This document shows positions 18,891 through 27,445 of a DNA stretch of 27,671 nt, piece by piece. The stretch spans positions 1 through 27,671 of IMG/VR virus record IMGVR_UViG_3300024505_000666; one strand, written 5' to 3'. Both the position numbers and the translations under genes were made by a program. Under the pieces are notes generated by a model. The model saw only the letters and a list, made by a program, of their open reading frames with translations, searched no databases and was not told where the DNA came from. Each line of letters opens with the position of its first letter. The stretch's first letter is position 1. Source of the DNA: a virus.

Positions 18891-20441
18891 TCACCTTCCA
18901 AGCCCAAGTTTTTCATAGTCGAAGTCCTCCGAATCGCCCAGGATGTTCTCGGCGAAGCCTTCCGTGCTCTTGATGATGCTCAACCGCTGCAGGCTGTGAT
19001 CCTTGAGGTAGCGGTTGGAGTCGTCGAAGAAGTCCAGGATCAGGGCCACGTTCGGCCCACTCTTCTTGGCGCGCAAGCCGCGACCGATGCGCTGACGCAG
19101 CGCGACCTCGGCCTTGCCCCCGCCAGCCAGAATCACCAGACCGACAGCGGGCACGTCAACGCCCACGTCCAGAATGGTCGAACCGATCAGCACGTCGATT
19201 CGACCCGTGGCGAGCTTGTGCAGCGCGGCCTTGCGCTCCGACTGGTCGTTTTCCCCGTAGATGAACTCGGCGCGAATGCCGCCCTCGCGCAGCTTGTCCA
19301 GCAGCAGCTGACCGTGCGCTTTTTGCTGGATCAGCACCATCGTGGACAGACGGTTGCGGGCGGCTCGAGCACATTCGGCCACGATCAGGCGGTTGCGCTC
19401 GTCGTTGTTGACGATGCCCAGACGGTAGGCGGCCTGCCAGGGCGTGCCCCGCAGCAGCCCCTTGGGCTTTTCGGTCAGCTTGGCAATCTTGAAGATCGGC
19501 TTGGCCAGGATGCCTCGGTCGATCAGCAGCTTCTCCGTGACCTTGATGCCGATCGAGCCGAACGCGGCCATCAGGCGCATGTTCGATTCCTCGTCATCCT
19601 TCATGAAGGGCGTGGCGGTGATGGCCAGGCGGTAGTGAGCGTTCTTGCAGTGGCGAAGAATCTCGTAGTAGCTGTTGCCGGACGCCTCGTGCGCTTCCTC
19701 CCCGATCACGAACTCGAACTTCGAGAGCAGGCTGATCGTCTGGTTGCGGATGGCCACCTGGCGGTTCTGAACCTCGACCGGATCGTCCGGATTGGGCTCC
19801 TGCAGGCGCGAAATGAGAGTCTGAACCATGCCGACCGTCATTTTCTTGATGTAGGAGCGGCCCGACTCGTCGGTGAAGCCAAACTGACCGTCGCCGAGCA
19901 CCGAGCAGGGGATGCCGAGGTCTTTCTCGAACGTCTCCTTCATCTGGTACATCAGAATCGAGCGGGTCGTCAGAAAGAGGGTGGGCCGGTTGATTCGCAT
20001 GAACGCCAGGCGGGCGATTCGTGACTTGCCGCCCCCTGTGGCCACCTGAGCGATCATCGAGCCGTGCCGCACCAGTCGGTTGACCGTGTCCATCTGGTAG
20101 TCGTAACGCGGATCATCCTCAAACGCATCCACCTTCGGGTTCTCCGGCCCCAGCGGCAGGGGTAGCGGCTTGCGAACGCGGTGGACGGTCTTGCCCTGGC
20201 GGGTCAGGTGCGCCACCACGTAGTTCACGAACCCGGCGGGAAAGGTGGCTGTCCGGAAGTCGAAGAACGAGCTTCGGCCGTCCCAGTTGCCCATCTTGAA
20301 CGCGGCGGTGTGCTCCGCGCCCTCAACCTTATAGGAGAGCAGCGACTGCACATGAAGTTTCACATCACGCGGCGCTTCGTGCAGTTTTGCGATAGTTGCG
20401 TTGTAGGCGATGGTGACGGAGTTGGATGAAAAATTTGTCAT
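18891..20441 (-). CDS. UvsW-like superfamily 2 DNA helicase
   Basis: 516 aa. The N-terminal ~110 residues resemble the substrate-binding region of UvsW-type phage helicases (FKMGNWDGRSSFFD). Then DYQMDTVNRLV, motif I ATGGGKS (134-140), motif II GEEAHE (247-252, an EEAH variant of DEAH), motif III ITATP (274-278), motif V ILDVGVDVPAVG (423-434) and motif VI QRIGRGLR (450-457). Such enzymes unwind branched DNA and R-loops and support recombination-dependent replication and fork reversal in T4. Length matches UvsW. Start at 20441 is next to the divergent promoter; a 20-bp GTG or TTG extension is not supported. Confidence 0.93.
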   Translation of the reverse strand: MTNFSSNSVTIAYNATIAKLHEAPRDVKLHVQSLLSYKVEGAEHTAAFKMGNWDGRSSFFDFRTATFPAGFVNYVVAHLTRQGKTVHRVRKPLPLPLGPENPKVDAFEDDPRYDYQMDTVNRLVRHGSMIAQVATGGGKSRIARLAFMRINRPTLFLTTRSILMYQMKETFEKDLGIPCSVLGDGQFGFTDESGRSYIKKMTVGMVQTLISRLQEPNPDDPVEVQNRQVAIRNQTISLLSKFEFVIGEEAHEASGNSYYEILRHCKNAHYRLAITATPFMKDDEESNMRLMAAFGSIGIKVTEKLLIDRGILAKPIFKIAKLTEKPKGLLRGTPWQAAYRLGIVNNDERNRLIVAECARAARNRLSTMVLIQQKAHGQLLLDKLREGGIRAEFIYGENDQSERKAALHKLATGRIDVLIGSTILDVGVDVPAVGLVILAGGGKAEVALRQRIGRGLRAKKSGPNVALILDFFDDSNRYLKDHSLQRLSIIKSTEGFAENILGDSEDFDYEKLGLGR

Positions 20442-20492: not shown

Positions 20493-20510
20493 TGAACAGT
20501 ATTGCCTCTG

Positions 20511-21170
20511 ATGAGCAAAATCAAACTAGAAACACGCAAGCCGTCCGAGCTTGCAGCAAACCCTTGGAACACCAACGTGGTGTCGCCGGAGAACCAGCAG
20601 AAGCTGGAAGAAAGCGTCAAGCGCTTTGGTATGTTCAAGCCAATCGTCGTGCGCGAACTCGACGGTGGCGTCCTGCAAATCATTGGTGGCCAGCACCGCT
20701 GGGAGGCTGCCCAAGCGCTTGGCCACACCGATGTGCCAGTCATCAACCTGGGTCGCATCAGCGACAAAAAGGCCAAAGAAATCAGCCTGGTGGACAACGG
20801 TCGGTACGGTGCCGACGACACCCTGCAGCTGGCGCACCTGCTGGAAGACATCGGGGTTGACGCGAACGAGCTGGCCAGCTTCATGCCGTATTCCGAGTCG
20901 GACTTCGCTTCGATCTTTTCGTCAGTCAATATATCGCTGGACGATCTTGATCTACCCGACGGGGATGAACTTTCCGCAAAAACTCCCAACTCAAAACCTG
21001 TGCAAACGCACCAGATCATGCGTTTCAAGGTTCCTGTCGATGACGTATCAGTCATCACTGACTTGATTGAACGAACGATGAAAGAACAGCGGTATGTGGA
21101 CGAAGATTCACTTTCTAATGCCGGAAACGCATTGGTCTTTCTCCTGTCCAAAGTCGCAGACGAGGAGTGA
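20511..21170 (+). CDS. ParB-N-domain protein 1
   Basis: 219 aa from ATG 20511; a TTG at 20502 is in frame but no ribosome site marks either. The ParB/Srx-type domain covers about residues 8-100: LAANPWNTN, LEESVKRFGMFKPIVVRE, then IIGGQHRWEAAQALG (57-71) and AKEISLVDNGRYG, matching the 'QHRW/GERR' nucleotide-binding box and 'LxDNxR' of phage ParB-like proteins. The rest is an acidic linker (DLDLPDGDE) and a small C-terminal domain. ParB-type domains can bind CTP, act as nucleases or pair with modification enzymes; which applies is unknown. First gene of the long operon. Confidence 0.88.
   Translation: MSKIKLETRKPSELAANPWNTNVVSPENQQKLEESVKRFGMFKPIVVRELDGGVLQIIGGQHRWEAAQALGHTDVPVINLGRISDKKAKEISLVDNGRYGADDTLQLAHLLEDIGVDANELASFMPYSESDFASIFSSVNISLDDLDLPDGDELSAKTPNSKPVQTHQIMRFKVPVDDVSVITDLIERTMKEQRYVDEDSLSNAGNALVFLLSKVADEE
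21051..21062 (+). promoter_or_regulatory. Intragenic GTCATCACTGAC dyad
   Basis: A perfect dyad identical to the one at 1099, inside the first ParB-like gene and about 110 bp before the next start. It is the only perfect copy I found within a coding sequence. Confidence 0.4.
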
Positions 21171-21174
21171 TGAC

Positions 21175-21345
21175 ATGGACAAGTTTCCTGAATGCGAAAG
21201 CTGCATGAACAAGGAACTGGACCCGTTCCAGTGCGACGACTGTGAAGACGCCTGCAACTTCGAGCCGTACGAAGAAGAGGAAGACGCCAGTGTCGAAGAA
21301 ATGAGCATTCAGGAATTTGTGGAATTCTGGAGAAACAGACAATGA
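21175..21345 (+). CDS. Small acidic Cys-rich protein
   Basis: 56 aa, ATG 21175 four bases after the previous stop; the preceding GAGGAG is its ribosome site. Cys at CESCM (about residues 8-11) and CDDCEDAC (about 21-28) could hold one zinc. It is followed by a Glu/Asp run (YEEEEDASVEE) and a helical end. Placed between the two ParB-like genes and overlapping the second by four bases. Confidence 0.75.
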   Translation: MDKFPECESCMNKELDPFQCDDCEDACNFEPYEEEEDASVEEMSIQEFVEFWRNRQ

Positions 21346-22013
21346 CAAAGAACGCGACCGGCACATTGCCTGGCCAGATCACGGTCTGGGCCATCGACAA
21401 GATTCAGCCCTACGAGCTGAACGCCAAGATTCACGACGACAAGCAGGTCGAGCGGATCGCCAAATCCATCAAGGAGTTCGGCTGGAGCCAGCCGATCGTG
21501 GTGGACAAGGGCGGCGTCATCATCGCGGGTCACGGCCGGCGCCTGGCCGCCATCAAGCTCGGTCTGGACAAGGTGCCCGTTTGGGTGCGCGACGATCTGG
21601 ATGCCGAGCAGGTGCGAGCGCTTCGCCTGGCGGACAACCGCGTCGCCATCGGTGACATCGACACCAGCTTGCTGCAGAAGGAGCTCGCCGACTTGGACTT
21701 TGACCTCAAGGGCATCTTTGACGCCAAGGAGCTCGAGTTCCTCGAGGCAGACCTGGGCGAATACAACCCTGACGCATTCGTCGAGGACATCGAGATCGAG
21801 GTCGAGAAGCAGACCAAGGAGTCGGCCAAGACGGTCGAGGAGACGGACGAGCGTGACGTGAAGATCGACAAGGCCCTGGGCTTCAAGACGATCAAGGGCG
21901 CCGATGAGCGCCACGTTGCGCGGTTCATGGCTCAGATCGAGGCCGAGATGGGAGCTGAGGGCGCCGAGGCTTTCGTCAAGTTCGTTCGCGGCGTCCTGGA
22001 GCCTCAGTCATGA
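21342..22013 (+). CDS. ParB-N-domain protein 2
   Basis: 223 aa. VWAIDKIQPYELNAKIHD, IAKSIKEFGWSQPIVVDKGG, VIIAGHGRRLAAIKLG (59-74) and RALRLADNRVAI (92-103) are a textbook phage/methylase-associated ParB domain with the GHGRR box. After about residue 110 there is a second acidic region (DPDAF-like NPDAFVEDIEIEVEKQ) and a helical C-terminus (ERHVARFMAQIEAEMGAEG). This second half is unlike ParB 1, so the pair may be partners and not recent duplicates. ATGA overlaps on both sides. Confidence 0.92.
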   Translation: MTKNATGTLPGQITVWAIDKIQPYELNAKIHDDKQVERIAKSIKEFGWSQPIVVDKGGVIIAGHGRRLAAIKLGLDKVPVWVRDDLDAEQVRALRLADNRVAIGDIDTSLLQKELADLDFDLKGIFDAKELEFLEADLGEYNPDAFVEDIEIEVEKQTKESAKTVEETDERDVKIDKALGFKTIKGADERHVARFMAQIEAEMGAEGAEAFVKFVRGVLEPQS

Positions 22014-22378
22014 GTGACGTATTCAATGGCCTGCCGCGTCGAATCAAGGTCGGGCAGTACACCTTCCGAGTGGTTGTCTCCAACGCGACAGAGCAGACCG
22101 ACCTGGATGGCTGTGACGGCCTCACGGACTTCACCAAGTTCCGCATCTACCTCGATGAGTCGCTGCACCGGCAACGCGCCGTGAACGTGGTCCAGCACGA
22201 GCTGATCCACGCGATCAACTGGGTCTACGGGGTCGATGACGGCGCCGAAGAGGAGCACATCACCACGCAGGTCACGAATGGCCTGGTGGAGCTCTGGATG
22301 AGCAATCCGAAGGTCGTCAACTGGTTCGTCAAGAACTTGCGCGCCATGAAGCGCGAGAACGCGAGGGACGACGAATGA
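22010..22378 (+). CDS. Zincin-like metallopeptidase (HELIH)
   Basis: 122 aa. The HEXXH motif HELIH at residues 63-67 (VVQHELIHAINWVYG), followed by an acidic EEEH (about 80-83) that may supply the third zinc ligand. The N-terminal part is beta-rich (KVGQYTFRVVVSN). It resembles short phage zincins related to the IrrE/SprT-like group. It could be a protease or a structural metal-binding protein. Coupled by ATGA on both sides within the ParB/ABC operon. Confidence 0.88.
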   Translation: MSDVFNGLPRRIKVGQYTFRVVVSNATEQTDLDGCDGLTDFTKFRIYLDESLHRQRAVNVVQHELIHAINWVYGVDDGAEEEHITTQVTNGLVELWMSNPKVVNWFVKNLRAMKRENARDDE

Positions 22379-22503
22379 ACGTGCCCATTCCTGTTCTGGT
22401 GCTGCTGTCGCTGATGGCCATTCCTGGCTTTCTGTTCACGCTGCTGTGGCTCTGGGCGACCGTGAAGCTGGCCATCATCTACTGGAAGGAAGGTGTGTTT
22501 TGA
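22375..22503 (+). CDS. 42-aa membrane peptide
   Basis: Starts on the previous stop (ATGA) and ends one base into the next start (TTTGA). Residues about 5-36 are hydrophobic (VLVLLSLMAIPGFLFTLLW), followed by KLAIIYWKEG. One or two membrane helices. Too short to assign; position directly before the ABC ATPase suggests it may anchor or partner it. Confidence 0.7.
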   Translation: MNVPIPVLVLLSLMAIPGFLFTLLWLWATVKLAIIYWKEGVF

Positions 22504-23162
22504 CCACCTACACCCTCGACAAGAAATTCCACTCGCATGTGGATCGCACCGATCGGGTGCTGGAGATTGCCGAAGCGTTCGGCCTGGGCCTGGACGACAA
22601 GACCTTCGTGGTCTTCGACAACCAGCCCATCGACGTGGAGCAGGGCGATGTCGTCTACATCACCGGCCAGTCGGGTTCCGGCAAGTCGCTCGCGCTGCGC
22701 GAGCTGAAGGCTCAGATGACGGCCAGCGGTCTGCAGGTCGCCGACGTAGACGAAGTGCCGCTCGACTCGAGCAAGCCGCTGATCGACCAGATTGGCGCCA
22801 CGACGGCCGAGGCGCTGACCTACCTCTCGATCGCCGGCCTGAACGACGCCTATCTGTTCGTTCGCAAGCCGCAGGAGCTCTCCGACGGCCAGCGGTATCG
22901 CTTTCGCCTGGCCAAGATCATCGAATCGGGCGCCAAAGTCTGGATTGCCGATGAGTTCCTGGCGGTGCTGGACCGCACGACCGCCAAAGTAATCGCCTTC
23001 AACCTTCAGAAAGTCGCCCGCAAGGTCGGCGCCACGCTGATGGTGGCCACAACCCATACGGACATGGTCGATGACCTGGCGCCGAACCTCTACATCGAAA
23101 AACGCTACCGGGAAAAGATCGAAATCGTTCGGACCCCGCAAGGCTACAAGGACAACGAATGA
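22500..23162 (+). CDS. Soluble ABC-family ATPase (COG2401-like)
   Basis: 220 aa from a TTG start at 22500, 7 bases after GGAAGG; upstream GTG codons lie in the neighbour and lack a site. Walker A GQSGSGKS (56-63), signature LSDGQ (127-131), Walker B VWIADE (147-152), D-loop LAVLDR and H-loop His186 are all intact, so it should dimerise and hydrolyse ATP. There is no membrane domain. DEFLAVLDRTTAKVIAFNLQ resembles the ABC half of fused ABC-acetyltransferase proteins. Its acyltransferase partner appears to be encoded 580 bp downstream. Confidence 0.92.
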   Translation: MTTYTLDKKFHSHVDRTDRVLEIAEAFGLGLDDKTFVVFDNQPIDVEQGDVVYITGQSGSGKSLALRELKAQMTASGLQVADVDEVPLDSSKPLIDQIGATTAEALTYLSIAGLNDAYLFVRKPQELSDGQRYRFRLAKIIESGAKVWIADEFLAVLDRTTAKVIAFNLQKVARKVGATLMVATTHTDMVDDLAPNLYIEKRYREKIEIVRTPQGYKDNE

Positions 23163-23476
23163 CCGATCAAGAAACCTTCGAACAAGTGATGCTGCGCTCC
23201 TGGAGTGAGGAAGCAGGAGGCGTCTCGTTCGCGCTTTTCTCTTCTCCCAACTGTGCGCCGTGCGGTCGCGTGAAGGCCGCCCTCGAGCGCCTGGAGAACG
23301 CCGGCGTGCTGCGCCATGAGGTGAGCTACATCAACGTGTACCACGCTGCTGCGGCCGCCATGAAGACCAACGTGCGCTCGGTGCCCGTACTGGTTCGCTT
23401 TGAGCAGGGCCGCGAGACAGGGCGCCTCACGGGCGATCAGAACGAGCCCAAGCTGCTGGATTTCATCAATGCCTGA
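23159..23476 (+). CDS. Thioredoxin-like protein (CAPC)
   Basis: 105 aa. FALFSSPNCAPCGRVKAALERL (about residues 24-45) with the redox pair C32-A-P-C35, then EVSYINVYHAAAAAMKTNVRSVPVLVRF with cis-Pro76. A thioredoxin/glutaredoxin fold, slightly compact, cytoplasmic (no signal peptide). Possible roles are donating electrons to a phage ribonucleotide reductase or to an enzyme of this operon. ATGA coupling to the ABC ATPase. Confidence 0.9.
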   Translation: MTDQETFEQVMLRSWSEEAGGVSFALFSSPNCAPCGRVKAALERLENAGVLRHEVSYINVYHAAAAAMKTNVRSVPVLVRFEQGRETGRLTGDQNEPKLLDFINA

Positions 23477-23744
23477 CATGAGCCTGACCGACGCGGCAAT
23501 CATCTTCCTGGGCGCCTACACGGTGGTGTTCCTGCTCGGGCTGCAGTCGCGCAACGTGGTCGCGGGTCGCTACGTGGCGGCCATGCTGACCTCGGCCGGC
23601 ATTTCACTGTCGCAGTTCATCTTCGTGAAGTACGCCGCCAGCGGATCGCTTGCGGTTCTGACTATCTCCACGATGGGCGGCTGCCTGGGCATCGCCAGCG
23701 CGATCTGGTTCTACAAGAACGTCATGGACAGGAAGCGCCGATGA
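23469..23744 (+). CDS. Small multi-pass membrane protein
   Basis: 91 aa from ATG 23469, or 88 aa from ATG 23478; neither has a good ribosome site, so the start is uncertain. Three hydrophobic segments: about 9-24 (AIIFLGAYTVVFLLGL), 34-55 (AMLTSAGISLSQFIFV) and 61-80 (LTISTMGGCLGIASAIWF), with a basic end (MDRKRR). Overlaps neighbours by 8 and 4 bp. I recall similar short proteins beside phage ABC/GNAT genes, but cannot verify this. Confidence 0.82.
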   Translation: MPDMSLTDAAIIFLGAYTVVFLLGLQSRNVVAGRYVAAMLTSAGISLSQFIFVKYAASGSLAVLTISTMGGCLGIASAIWFYKNVMDRKRR

Positions 23745-24658
23745 TCGACAACCAAGACATCCTGATCGAGCGCCGGCAGGTGCCCAAGAACCACATGCTG
23801 TCGCTGCTGCCCAACATCTACGTGGAGCGCGGCGACATCGACGACTGGAACCTGCTGCACGAGCTGCACTACAAGGCAGAAAGCCTGGGCATCGGACCGC
23901 GCATCTACCGCTGCGTGCTGGAAGAGGGCGGCCGGCGCCAAGTGATCGGCGTGGGCGTTATGACGGTGCCAAAGATGCTTCTAAGCGGCCGAAACGAGGT
24001 TTTTCGGCACTTGAAGCCCAATACGGGCGGCATGGACAGCCGTCTAATCAACCGCACTCGAGCCTATTGGATCAATGACCACGCCTGCACGAACAGCCGG
24101 CTGGTGCTGGACACGATGTACCGTGGCGCCGGCATCGCCTACCGCATGCAGAACATCATGATGCGAATGACTGGCTGCCAGGTGGTCGAGTTCCAGTCGT
24201 CGATGTCCAAGTTCAACCCGTTTGCCGCCAAAGCCGGTATCCGATTCACCAAGCCACGCCGTAGTGCCAACTACGAGAAGGGTGTCAAGTTCTTCCGGCG
24301 CTGGTTCGACTCCAATCCATCTGACTTCATGGGTGTGATGGCCGAACTCAACGCCATGCCGGCTGCCGTGCGTGCCAAGTGCGAGCGGGAGATGCGGGAC
24401 TTCTACTACGCCTGCTCGGCCCTGGAGAAGACGGGCAACGCCCGCTTCCGTGGTGAAGACCGCCGCGAGACGATGGAGGTCGGCTACCTGCTCAAGAGCC
24501 TGCAGCAGCTGGTTCTGGCCAGCCCGCTGTACGGGGTCTACATCAACCCCGACGCCAGTCCCGAGAAGGGCAAGAGCACGCTGCCGGCCCGCGTTCCGGT
24601 CATCGCTTTCGACAACCAACCCACCGACCAGCCTTTGGACTTGTCCAGGCTGCCCTGA
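23741..24658 (+). CDS. GNAT-like acyltransferase (acetyltransferase half of a COG2401-like pair)
   Basis: 305 aa. LLHELHYKAESLGIGPRIYRC (about 38-58), a strand VIGVGVMTVP, then SRLVLDTMYRGAGIAYRMQN (119-138), where RGAGIA (128-133) stands for the acyl-CoA-binding R/Q-x-x-G-x-G/A loop. VVEFQSSMSKFNPFAAKAGI (148-167) completes the GNAT pattern. The 'KFNPF..KAG' element is what I associate with the transferase part of fused ABC-GNAT proteins and with Mom-type DNA-modifying acyltransferases. About 130 further residues form a helical C-terminal domain of unknown role. The substrate could be DNA, RNA or protein. Confidence 0.8.
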   Translation: MIDNQDILIERRQVPKNHMLSLLPNIYVERGDIDDWNLLHELHYKAESLGIGPRIYRCVLEEGGRRQVIGVGVMTVPKMLLSGRNEVFRHLKPNTGGMDSRLINRTRAYWINDHACTNSRLVLDTMYRGAGIAYRMQNIMMRMTGCQVVEFQSSMSKFNPFAAKAGIRFTKPRRSANYEKGVKFFRRWFDSNPSDFMGVMAELNAMPAAVRAKCEREMRDFYYACSALEKTGNARFRGEDRRETMEVGYLLKSLQQLVLASPLYGVYINPDASPEKGKSTLPARVPVIAFDNQPTDQPLDLSRLP

Positions 24659-24661
24659 ACC

Positions 24662-24988
24662 ATGCATCTGACAGCCAAACAAATCGAACTCCTGAGCGTC
24701 ATCGGCAAGCGCAACGAAGACGGCGGCGCCACCGATCTCGACCAGATTCTCGAGCGGCTCTCGTACAAGCCGACCAAGCAATCCCTGCAGTTTTCGATCC
24801 GCGCCCTCATCGCCCATGGTCTGATCCAAAAGGACGCGCCTGAGAAGCGTAGGGGCCGCACCAGAACTCTCATTTCCCTCACCAAGCAGGGCCAAACGAT
24901 GATGGGTTCCGCAAAGCCCTCTCCGGCGTTTGTCGAGACCGAAGCCGACGATCTGCTGAGTGACATTGCTGAAATCCTCGAACCCTGA
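24662..24988 (+). CDS. Winged-helix-like DNA-binding protein
   Basis: 108 aa, ATG three bases after the previous stop. LTAKQIELLSVIGKRN, LDQILERLSYKPTKQSLQFSIRALIAHGLIQKD and RTRTLISLTKQGQTMM give the helix - recognition helix - wing order of MarR/PadR-like regulators. C-terminal acidic helix. A candidate regulator of this operon or of the late genes that follow. Confidence 0.78.
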   Translation: MHLTAKQIELLSVIGKRNEDGGATDLDQILERLSYKPTKQSLQFSIRALIAHGLIQKDAPEKRRGRTRTLISLTKQGQTMMGSAKPSPAFVETEADDLLSDIAEILEP

Positions 24989-25553: not shown

Positions 25554-26201
25554 GTGACTGAGAAGGCAGAAAAACGCGGGATCAAGCCTGGAACCAAGAC
25601 GAAGGGCAAGCTCTCGGACAAGGCATGGGCCGAAGCCACGACCCTGTGGAAGCAGGGCGTGGTCACGCTCGAGGAACTGGCGGCCAAGTACGACCGTCAT
25701 CCCCAGTCCTTCGCCCAGTATTTCCGCCGGCGCGGCATCAAGAAGGGCCAGGACAAGGAAAAGATCGCCAAGAAGGTTGAGGCGGCCGTCGAGAAGCAGG
25801 AGCTCAACGACGCGCAGATCATCGCCGCTCGCATTCGCGAGACCAAGGAAGATCACTACAAGATGGCCAGCGGTCTGGCCAAGCTCACCTGGGCCGAGAT
25901 TCTCAAGGCCAAGCAGGACGGCGTACCCGTCGGAACCGCAATCAACAACCTCAAGGCGCTGGAGAGCGCCATGAACGTGCTCAAGAAGGCCCGCGAGGAG
26001 CGCTACAGCGTTCTCGGCCTGGATCGTCCGGACGCTATCGACGAGAACGACGTGCCGGAACTGGTGATCTCGGAGCTCACGGCCGATCAGATCGCCGCGT
26101 TGCGCGAGCGTTCGTTCCGCGAGATGGATCAGCTCGAGATCAACGGCGACATCGAGGATGTTCCGCCGGACGAGCCGGATGACGTGGTCGAGGAGTCCTG
26201 A
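25554..26201 (+). CDS. terS: Small terminase subunit-like protein
   Basis: 215 aa from GTG 25554 after GAAAGAACGAGAA. Residues about 20-62 form an HTH (KAWAEATTLWKQGVVTLEELAAKYDRHPQSFAQYFRRRGI), the DNA-recognition part of small terminases. It is followed by a Lys/Glu coiled-coil region (KIAKKVEAAVEKQELND), a helical oligomerisation region and an acidic end (PPDEPDDVVEES). Small terminases bind the packaging site and stimulate the large subunit. Position directly before the large terminase, with one-base overlap, supports the call; sequence alone is less certain. Confidence 0.85.
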   Translation: MTEKAEKRGIKPGTKTKGKLSDKAWAEATTLWKQGVVTLEELAAKYDRHPQSFAQYFRRRGIKKGQDKEKIAKKVEAAVEKQELNDAQIIAARIRETKEDHYKMASGLAKLTWAEILKAKQDGVPVGTAINNLKALESAMNVLKKAREERYSVLGLDRPDAIDENDVPELVISELTADQIAALRERSFREMDQLEINGDIEDVPPDEPDDVVEES

Positions 26202-27445
26202 TGGCATCAAAGGTCGGGCTCTCGCTACACCCCAAGCAGATGGAGGTCTACCGCAGCCAGGCGCGGTATCGCGTGGTCGTGGCCGGCCGACGCTGGGGTA
26301 AGACAGCCCTGTCTCGGGTGCTCATCATCAAGAAGGCCCAGAAAAAGAAGCAAAAAATCTGGTACGTGGCCCCCACGTACAAGATGGCCAAGCAGATCAT
26401 GTGGGTTGACCTGATGGACGCGATTCCTCGCAAATGGATTCGCAAGGTCAACGAAACCAGCCTGACGATCACGCTCATCAACGGCACCCGCATCGAGCTC
26501 AAAGGCGCAGACAAGCCCGACTCGCTGCGAGGCGTCGGTATTCACTTCCTCGTGCTGGACGAGTTTCAGGACATGGCCGAAGAGGTCTGGACGCTGGTGC
26601 TGCGCCCGACGTTGGCTGACACGGGCGGTCACGCGATCTTCATCGGCACCCCCAAGGCCTACAACTACCTCTACGAGCTGTACAAGAAGGGCCAGAACTC
26701 GGCGCTCAAAGCCGCCGGCGAGTGGGAATCCTGGCAGTTTCCGACCATCACGTCCCCCTTCATTCCGCTCGATGAGATCGAGGCGGCCAAGAAGGACATG
26801 GACGAAAAGAGCTTCCGCCAGGAGTTCGAGGCGTCTTTCGAGACCATGTCCGGCCGGGTGTACTACCCGTTCGACCGTCACACTCACGTTCAGCAGCTGG
26901 AGTTCAACCCGAAGCTGCCGATCTGGGTCGGTATGGACTTCAACATCGACCCGATGTCCACGGTGATCTACCAGCCTCAGCCCAATGGCGAGCTGTGGGC
27001 CATCGACGAGATCGTGCTGTTCGGCTCCAACACCGAGGAGGTCTGCGAGGAGCTGGAGAAGCGCTACTGGCGCAACCAGGCGCAGATCGTCATGTACCCC
27101 GACCCTGCCGGCGGCCAGCGCCAGCACGCTCGAGGCGAGACCGACATGGACATCCTGCGCGAGAAGGGATTCAAGCGCATCAAATACCGTCGCAAGCACC
27201 CGCTTGTGGCAGACCGCGTCAACGCGGTCAACCGGATGCTCAAGGACGCCAACGGAAACGTGCGGCTGCGTATCGACCCGAAGTGCAAGCACTTCATCAA
27301 CGCCCTGGAGCAGACGATTTACAAAAAAGGCACCCGAGAAGTGGATAAATCCATGGGTATCGAGCACTCGGCCGACGCCGGCGGTTACTGCATCGAGCTG
27401 GAATTCCCGGTACGCAAGGTCGAGATTGGCGGCTTGTCAATCTGA
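26201..27445 (+). CDS. terL: Terminase large subunit (packaging ATPase and nuclease)
   Basis: 414 aa. ATPase: Walker A AGRRWGKT (28-35), Walker B FLVLDE (116-121) followed by FQD, coupling motif GTP (149-151). RNase H-like nuclease: GMDFN with D246, YPDPAG with D301, HSADAGGY with D392. It cuts concatemers and drives DNA into the prohead at the portal vertex. Length matches short T4-unlike terminases such as those of lambdoid or P22-like size classes. No intein or intron visible. Confidence 0.97.
   Translation: MASKVGLSLHPKQMEVYRSQARYRVVVAGRRWGKTALSRVLIIKKAQKKKQKIWYVAPTYKMAKQIMWVDLMDAIPRKWIRKVNETSLTITLINGTRIELKGADKPDSLRGVGIHFLVLDEFQDMAEEVWTLVLRPTLADTGGHAIFIGTPKAYNYLYELYKKGQNSALKAAGEWESWQFPTITSPFIPLDEIEAAKKDMDEKSFRQEFEASFETMSGRVYYPFDRHTHVQQLEFNPKLPIWVGMDFNIDPMSTVIYQPQPNGELWAIDEIVLFGSNTEEVCEELEKRYWRNQAQIVMYPDPAGGQRQHARGETDMDILREKGFKRIKYRRKHPLVADRVNAVNRMLKDANGNVRLRIDPKCKHFINALEQTIYKKGTREVDKSMGIEHSADAGGYCIELEFPVRKVEIGGLSI

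Follow-up and report, generated by a model that had tools for sequence, protein, structure and literature searches.

Separately encoded ABC ATPase and GNAT-fold proteins in a ParB-containing phage operon as the probable halves of a DNA-base acyltransferase

Mom of phage Mu (PF25680) is a proven DNA-modifying enzyme with a GNAT-superfamily fold, and the RNA cytidine acetyltransferases NAT10 and TmcA combine an ATPase with a GNAT that acts on a base amine, although their ATPase is helicase-type, their substrate is RNA and the two parts form one chain. Other DNA-acting ABC ATPases hold or distort the duplex. Closest to the present case, Iyer et al. 2013 (NAR 41:7635), according to a review on jumbo phages (PMC7824862), predicted an ABC ATPase-coupled GNAT that acylates a DNA base, and the review names Tenacibaculum phage pT24 in this connection; the core idea is thus prior art. 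Here we analyzed a 27.7-kb IMG/VR virus fragment (IMGVR_UViG_3300024505_000666; 27,671 nucleotides in full, hereafter the window) that encodes an ABC ATPase and a GNAT-fold protein of 305 amino acids (aa) in one operon. The window's ABC protein directly matched pT24 (H88). As far as that system is described in the review, the window differs from it in having separate genes, a longer helical C-terminal part of the GNAT and two ParB genes, and in the split form a thioredoxin often lies between the two subunits. We concluded that the two proteins are probably the halves of a single phage enzyme that acylates DNA bases and that occurs elsewhere as a natural ABC-GNAT fusion, here in split form. The features that carry this conclusion are:

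22500–23162, + strand: ABC ATPase subunit (220 aa; PF00005, 42.2 bits; phrog_293, 7e-47; motifs intact)
23741–24658, + strand: GNAT-fold acyltransferase subunit (305 aa; phrog_886, 1e-124; AlphaFold 2 model, Foldseek and hhalign)
23846–23872, + strand: W-x6-HY motif of the GNAT subunit (W36, H43, Y44), invariant in the split and fused families
24098–24136, + strand: predicted acyl-coenzyme A (CoA) pyrophosphate loop RLVLDTMYRGAGI, from the alignment

The ABC gene starts at a TTG codon with GGAAGG ahead of it, and the resulting N-terminus agrees with the starts in SSU5 and nickie. Its product scored well over the PF00005 cut-off of 25 bits, and all of its motifs were intact: Walker A (GQSGSGKS), signature (LSDGQ), Walker B (VWIADEF) and H-loop (TTH). 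The protein aligned to the Pfam profile only at positions 5–37 and 82–135; because only these two ends match, the stretch from Q-loop to signature must be short or divergent. The gene is under purifying selection, with a ratio of nonsynonymous to synonymous substitution (dN/dS) of 0.08–0.16 relative to its relatives. No permease partner was found in the operon, whose only membrane proteins are 42 and 91 aa long and are not constant, so the sequence-only reading was correct in describing a complete, membrane-free ABC ATPase. PADLOC matches to mad3 and mad8 were dismissed as generic ABC similarity.

Searches of Pfam and NCBIfam with the 305-aa protein gave no match, and a PDB sequence search returned chance matches only. 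Judging from its predicted structure, the protein is a GNAT-fold acyltransferase subunit. The AlphaFold model (predicted local distance difference test, pLDDT, 85.6; predicted template modeling score, pTM, 0.78) places strands and helices in GNAT order, and every significant Foldseek match was an acetyltransferase. NAT10 was the top match (E 3e-4) and the tRNA-acting AtaT was also in the list of matches, but the low TM-scores (about 0.26 for NAT10) imply that only the GNAT fold is common to NAT10 and the window protein. Residues W36, H43, Y44, R120, V122, D124, R128 and G129 were invariant in an alignment of 51 sequences. The predicted CoA loop, RGAGIA at residues 128–133, has the R/Q-x-x-G-x-G/A form of the GNAT superfamily, with R128, G129 and I132 invariant and A130, G131 and A133 nearly so; the element KFNPFAAKAG lies at 24209–24238. 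Purifying selection acts on this gene as well (dN/dS 0.06–0.16 relative to its relatives). Together with the homology to fused GNATs described below, the model and the Foldseek matches bear out the earlier description of a GNAT-like acyltransferase.

Database labels at this gene are confusing. The phrog_886 label ‘ABC transporter ATP-binding subunit’ is misleading, as the members seen here are GNATs and not ATPases, and it has spread into deposited phage records. Over the GNAT match, the deposited annotation of Escherichia phage Cyrano reads ‘MK0520 protein, ABC-type ATPase fused to a predicted ...’; a literature search on COG2401 and MK0520 found no relevant paper in the library searched.

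We found 264 relatives in IMG/VR and the split form on 905 PLSDB plasmids (phage-plasmids), mostly from Klebsiella, Escherichia and Acinetobacter; the module is therefore not a chance arrangement. SSU5-type copies were present in 243 of 5,426 complete E. coli genomes and were plasmid-borne every time. Neighbors were counted in 80 IMG/VR split loci, of which 71 had enough upstream sequence. The pairing was obligate: an ABC gene lay upstream of the split GNAT in 71/71 loci, an adjoining partnership that, with the ABC motifs given above, fits a COG2401-like system. Two ParB genes were found upstream in 65/71 loci and at least one in 68/71, a winged-helix gene followed the GNAT in 70/71, and a terminase lay downstream in 67/71. 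SSU5, nickie, RHEph10 and BUCTxx99 (SSU5-type phage-plasmids and relatives) share the order ParB-ParB-ABC-(x)-GNAT; as in the window, a small gene of DNA-binding type comes next and then, in records that reach far enough, the terminase. Their intervening genes vary, and a thioredoxin was identified in none of the four.

Natural fusions of ABC and GNAT number in the hundreds in phages, including more distant ones such as Leptospira LE4, Pasteurella Pmp13 and phages of Gordonia, Nonlabens, Arthrobacter and Vibrio. Genomes held 431 relatives, with ParB upstream in most of the best 80. Of 80 fused loci, 61 have a ParB gene that ends within 800 bp on the upstream side and five others are truncated there by the end of the contig, and in loci L152 and L237 ParB, ABC and GNAT form a single open reading frame (ORF). 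A profile comparison of split and fused GNATs (hhalign, probability 93%, P 2.5e-7) brought the W-x6-HY motif and CoA loop into register, and the fused GNATs themselves match Pfam Acetyltransf_1 (3e-9). The predicted structure of a fused relative was one confident unit (pLDDT 91.6, pTM 0.86). Because natural fusions, the profile match and the GNAT topology of the model point the same way, our data support the view, also taken by the sequence-only reading, that ABC ATPase and GNAT form one functional unit.

Evidence for DNA as the substrate came from the genes with which the fused form trades places. The Arthrobacter phages EastWest and BarretLemon (both Berryhillviridae) carry ABC-GNAT and Mom, respectively, at the same slot, flanked by shared genes (identity: ParB 50%, upstream gene 62%, DNA-binding gene 78%, sliding clamp 46%). 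Likewise, Porphyromonas phage 007a has ABC-GNAT plus a formyltransferase where 015a has Mom, and their common tail genes are 86–98% identical. In the Mu-like phage Komp_PAO1_1, which has a transposase and Mu Gam, a micro-ORF, ABC-GNAT and formyltransferase follow the tail-fiber genes, the place of com-mom in Mu. In a ParB-led scan of 80 loci, Mom was present in 12 and ABC(-GNAT) in 5; the query held ParBs of Mom and ABC-GNAT loci, so that these two classes were favored and other partners were not. Ten other loci of the scan, examined by Pfam, included two ParB-N6/N4-methyltransferase fusions, two C5 methyltransferases, one Tet_JBP and one TET-associated glycosyltransferase (TAGT), and the remaining sampled loci had an asparagine synthase, an HNH gene or nothing further. 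Thus the fused form exchanges with Mom and with other DNA-modifying enzymes behind ParB. Fused relatives and Mom also share a W..HY-type N-terminal stretch, a weak resemblance (E 0.03–0.06; 13.5–14.2 bits against a cut-off of 27.1; hhalign probability 84%). Two side observations concern the same partners. The T4-like Aeromonas phage PX29 (GU396103.1) has a Mom homologue as well as an ABC-GNAT fusion, at 36066–36950 and 53341–54282. At L419 (682–1485) a ParB with a CPxC tail precedes a gene resembling asparagine synthase, whose product may be a further partner that modifies bases.

We scanned the genes 3' of fused ABC-GNATs with Pfam, and then scanned IMG/VR from each helper gene alone. PanD (aspartate 1-decarboxylase) occurred on 25 contigs: 23 have ABC-GNAT directly upstream, one ends before that region and one lacks it. 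The identity of PanD is given by a PDB profile match (6e-24) and the retained G-S processing site. A CoA-transferase-III-like protein (PF02515, 5e-8; PDB formyl-CoA transferase, weakly, 7e-4) lay behind ABC-GNAT in 31/31 evaluable contigs, and a formyltransferase (PF00551, 1e-8) did so in 78/78. PanD produces beta-alanine and class III CoA-transferases make acyl-CoAs, which points naturally to beta-alanyl-CoA as the donor. In fused relatives the acyl group thus probably comes from an unusual aminoacyl-CoA that the linked enzymes would synthesize or complete, with beta-alanyl-CoA coming from PanD and the CoA-transferase-like protein and the formyltransferase serving elsewhere, where it may formylate a free amino group. 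None of these three helper genes is present in the window's operon.

The helper operons were found in varied settings. PanD and the CoA-transferase-III-like gene come right after ParB/ABC-GNAT in diverse phage contigs (L136, 1796–2826; L127, 3917–4895; L160, 1975–2990; L299–L347) and in a Thermoanaerobaculia genome (L240). At L160 (878–4138) one such pair is flanked by two ABC-GNAT copies, suggesting two specificities served by one donor. The formyltransferase stands right behind ABC-GNAT at L010 (1805–2452), L348 (5128–5601), L350 (5110–5727) and L431–L510; the copy of Gordonia phage Fresco bears the annotation ‘tRNA-methyltransferase’.

Fused ABC-GNATs are further accompanied by a ‘tail’ of ~40 aa, either on ParB or as a free-standing ORF. 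A profile trained on the ParB tails of 61 viral fused loci matched 49/49 ParBs from ABC-GNAT loci of cellular genomes and the two free-standing ORFs to which it was applied, and matched 0/16 sequences from Mom loci and 0/25 long ParB ORFs. In formyltransferase loci the tail was a free micro-ORF in 52 and part of ParB in 17. Mom-linked ParBs had a CPxC tail instead in 11/16. The 42–49 aa ORF just before ABC-GNAT at L348 (3873–4001) and L350 (3852–4001), labelled ‘acr candidate’ in Porphyromonas phages, resembles the ParB tail. The C-terminal domain of the window's first ParB was weakly similar to that of some Mom-linked ParBs (L392, L400, L426; hhalign probability 58%, hidden Markov model E 0.0012 for one). 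The helper genes of fused relatives and the tail appear to be what is new here; Iyer et al. 2013 may have noted ParB or other neighbors. A literature search on donor cassettes and the tail found no paper in the library searched.

Gene context makes DNA-base modification the best-supported function; the base, the transferred group, DNA rather than RNA as substrate and the role of ATP are inferred. In the mechanism that we propose, the ParB proteins would recruit the enzyme to phage DNA, and the ATP-closed ABC dimer, by analogy with other DNA-acting ABC ATPases, would hold or distort the duplex and thereby offer a base to the GNAT, which would then move an acyl group from acyl-CoA to an exocyclic base amine before packaging, adenine N6 being the first candidate acceptor by analogy with Mom, and the acylated DNA would be protected from restriction. 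Of the two roles offered by the sequence-only reading, modification of the phage's own DNA is therefore the one that context favors, and nothing was found in support of an attack on host DNA or RNA. More tentatively, and as a possibility somewhat less likely than not, ABC-GNAT proteins could constitute a large class of enzymes that acylate DNA bases and whose donor cassettes can be swapped. In this view PanD and the CoA-transferase-III-like protein would load beta-alanyl-CoA, or the formyltransferase would finish an aminoacyl mark, yielding new bases such as beta-alanyl-adenine; the tail, whether attached to ParB or encoded by itself as a micro-protein at the place of com, would be a dedicated partner of the enzyme, and the window's phage-plasmid lineage would be the split branch.

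Several points weigh against assigning DNA-base acylation to the window's pair. All of the evidence is sequence, fold and neighborhood, and the neighbor and helper-gene counts are of raw contigs, near-identical ones included. NAT10, the closest PDB fold match, acetylates RNA, albeit at low TM-scores. The window GNAT itself had no PF25680 match and hhalign found nothing, so the direct kinship to Mom that the sequence-only reading proposed to check was not detected. The Mom slot is held by fused relatives only, and it was likewise in these, never in the split form, that Mom exchanges and donor genes were observed; they bear on the window through the homology that links both of its subunits to the fused proteins. 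Lastly, neither the ABC-GNAT tail nor the CPxC tail was found on the split system's ParBs (0/130), and the fused-system tail was rejected as a mark of split ParBs.

The alternative closest to these objections is an RNA acyltransferase, in which the ATPase-GNAT pair acylates an exocyclic base amine of tRNA or rRNA, as TmcA/NAT10 does in forming N4-acetylcytidine (ac4C), for host takeover or translation. TmcA/NAT10 likewise couples a P-loop ATPase with a GNAT, and both NAT10 and AtaT appear among the fold matches. We consider this reading unlikely in view of the Mom slot exchange, the DNA-modifying partners of ParB elsewhere and the adjoining terminase, and because the TmcA ATPase is helicase-like and not ABC. 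Protein acetylation has a precedent, since some phage GNATs acetylate host proteins, such as Rac on RNA polymerase (cited in PMC7824862). A protein acetyltransferase for host takeover, or a GNAT toxin, assisted by a chaperone ATPase would hardly explain the invariant coupling to ABC and ParB, the dedicated PanD, CoA-transferase and formyltransferase genes of fused relatives, or W..HY and CoA motifs kept across a very wide range of phages, and we give it only a slight chance.

The chance is equally slight that ParB and ABC clamp DNA for plasmid segregation or terminase loading with the GNAT only a regulator. The ParB genes, the downstream terminase in 67/71 loci and the many phage-plasmid carriers fit such an accessory role in partition or packaging. 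Both window ParBs match ParB_N only and lack HTH_ParB, no ParA is in the locus and none is annotated next to ParB in any of the compared loci, so a ParABS system is not indicated; moreover, Mom, methyltransferases, TET/JBP and TAGT stand behind ParBs of the same family. Least credible of all is a transporter in which the ABC ATPase drives the operon's small membrane proteins, even though both subunits are labelled ‘ABC transporter’ in databases. This was rejected because a membrane permease partner is lacking; the 42- and 91-aa neighbors are optional (an ORF related to the latter is in 32/71 split loci), the middle part of PF00005 is unmatched, and the natural fusion partners are GNAT and ParB.

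If DNA-base acylation by the ABC-GNAT pair is true, a gene pair that is very common in phages and phage-plasmids, and that databases now call ‘ABC transporter’, makes novel DNA bases. The chemical route of aminoacyl-CoA donor, acyl transfer and formylation would bear on the synthesis of Mom-type marks, long an open question, and the marks would matter for restriction resistance, phage therapy and the reading of modified bases in long-read data.

The remaining genes of the window lie around the two subunits as follows:

20502–21170, + strand: ParB-like protein 1 (222 aa; ParB_N only, no HTH_ParB; PF02195, 1.7e-13; phrog_723, 1e-65)
21342–22013, + strand: ParB-like protein 2 (223 aa), nearest the ParB half of ParB-DNA methyltransferase fusions (PF02195, 2e-8; phrog_930, 5e-87)
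22010–22378, + strand: SprT-like metallopeptidase-like protein (122 aa), optional (PF10263, 1.4e-4, under cut-off; 38/71 split loci)
22375–22503, + strand: small membrane protein (42 aa), optional (from sequence; no PHROG matched)
23159–23476, + strand: thioredoxin-like protein (105 aa, with a CAPC site), common yet optional (PF00085, 1.2e-7)
23469–23744, + strand: small holin-like membrane protein (91 aa), optional (phrog_7045 ‘holin’, 3e-17)
24662–24988, + strand: winged-helix protein (108 aa), conserved 3' of the GNAT (phrog_900, 3e-25; 70/71 split loci)
25554–26201, + strand: probable terminase small subunit or DNA-binding protein (in the position that ‘DNA binding domain’ genes take in nickie and RHEph10; no significant match in a Pfam search)
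26201–27445, + strand: terminase large subunit (PF17289, 2e-8; PF03237, 2.5e-8)

The run of genes between the two ParBs and the terminase is tightly packed. Genes overlap or abut at the junctions of ABC and thioredoxin (23159–23162), thioredoxin and membrane protein (23469–23476), and membrane protein and GNAT (23741–23744), which confirmed that the ABC ATPase and the 305-aa protein belong to one coupled ParB-containing operon. The thioredoxin and two membrane proteins that had been counted with it are indeed present, but as optional passengers; with a thioredoxin between ABC and GNAT in only 38/71 split loci, its role as a core part was rejected. The second ParB matches fusions of ParB with a DNA methyltransferase over their ParB half (phrog_498 ‘DNA methyltransferase’, 2e-40; PADLOC MTase_II, 1e-26), a further point in favor of DNA as the substrate; it has no methyltransferase domain, and the enzyme here is ABC plus GNAT. 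At 21178–21345 the two ParB genes are separated by a small Cys-rich ORF, CESCMNKELDPFQCDDCEDAC, which may be compared with the CPxC tail of Mom-linked ParBs. On the opposite strand, a 516-aa ORF (18891–20441, −) occupies the place of the DEAD/DEAH helicase that precedes ParB in SSU5 relatives.

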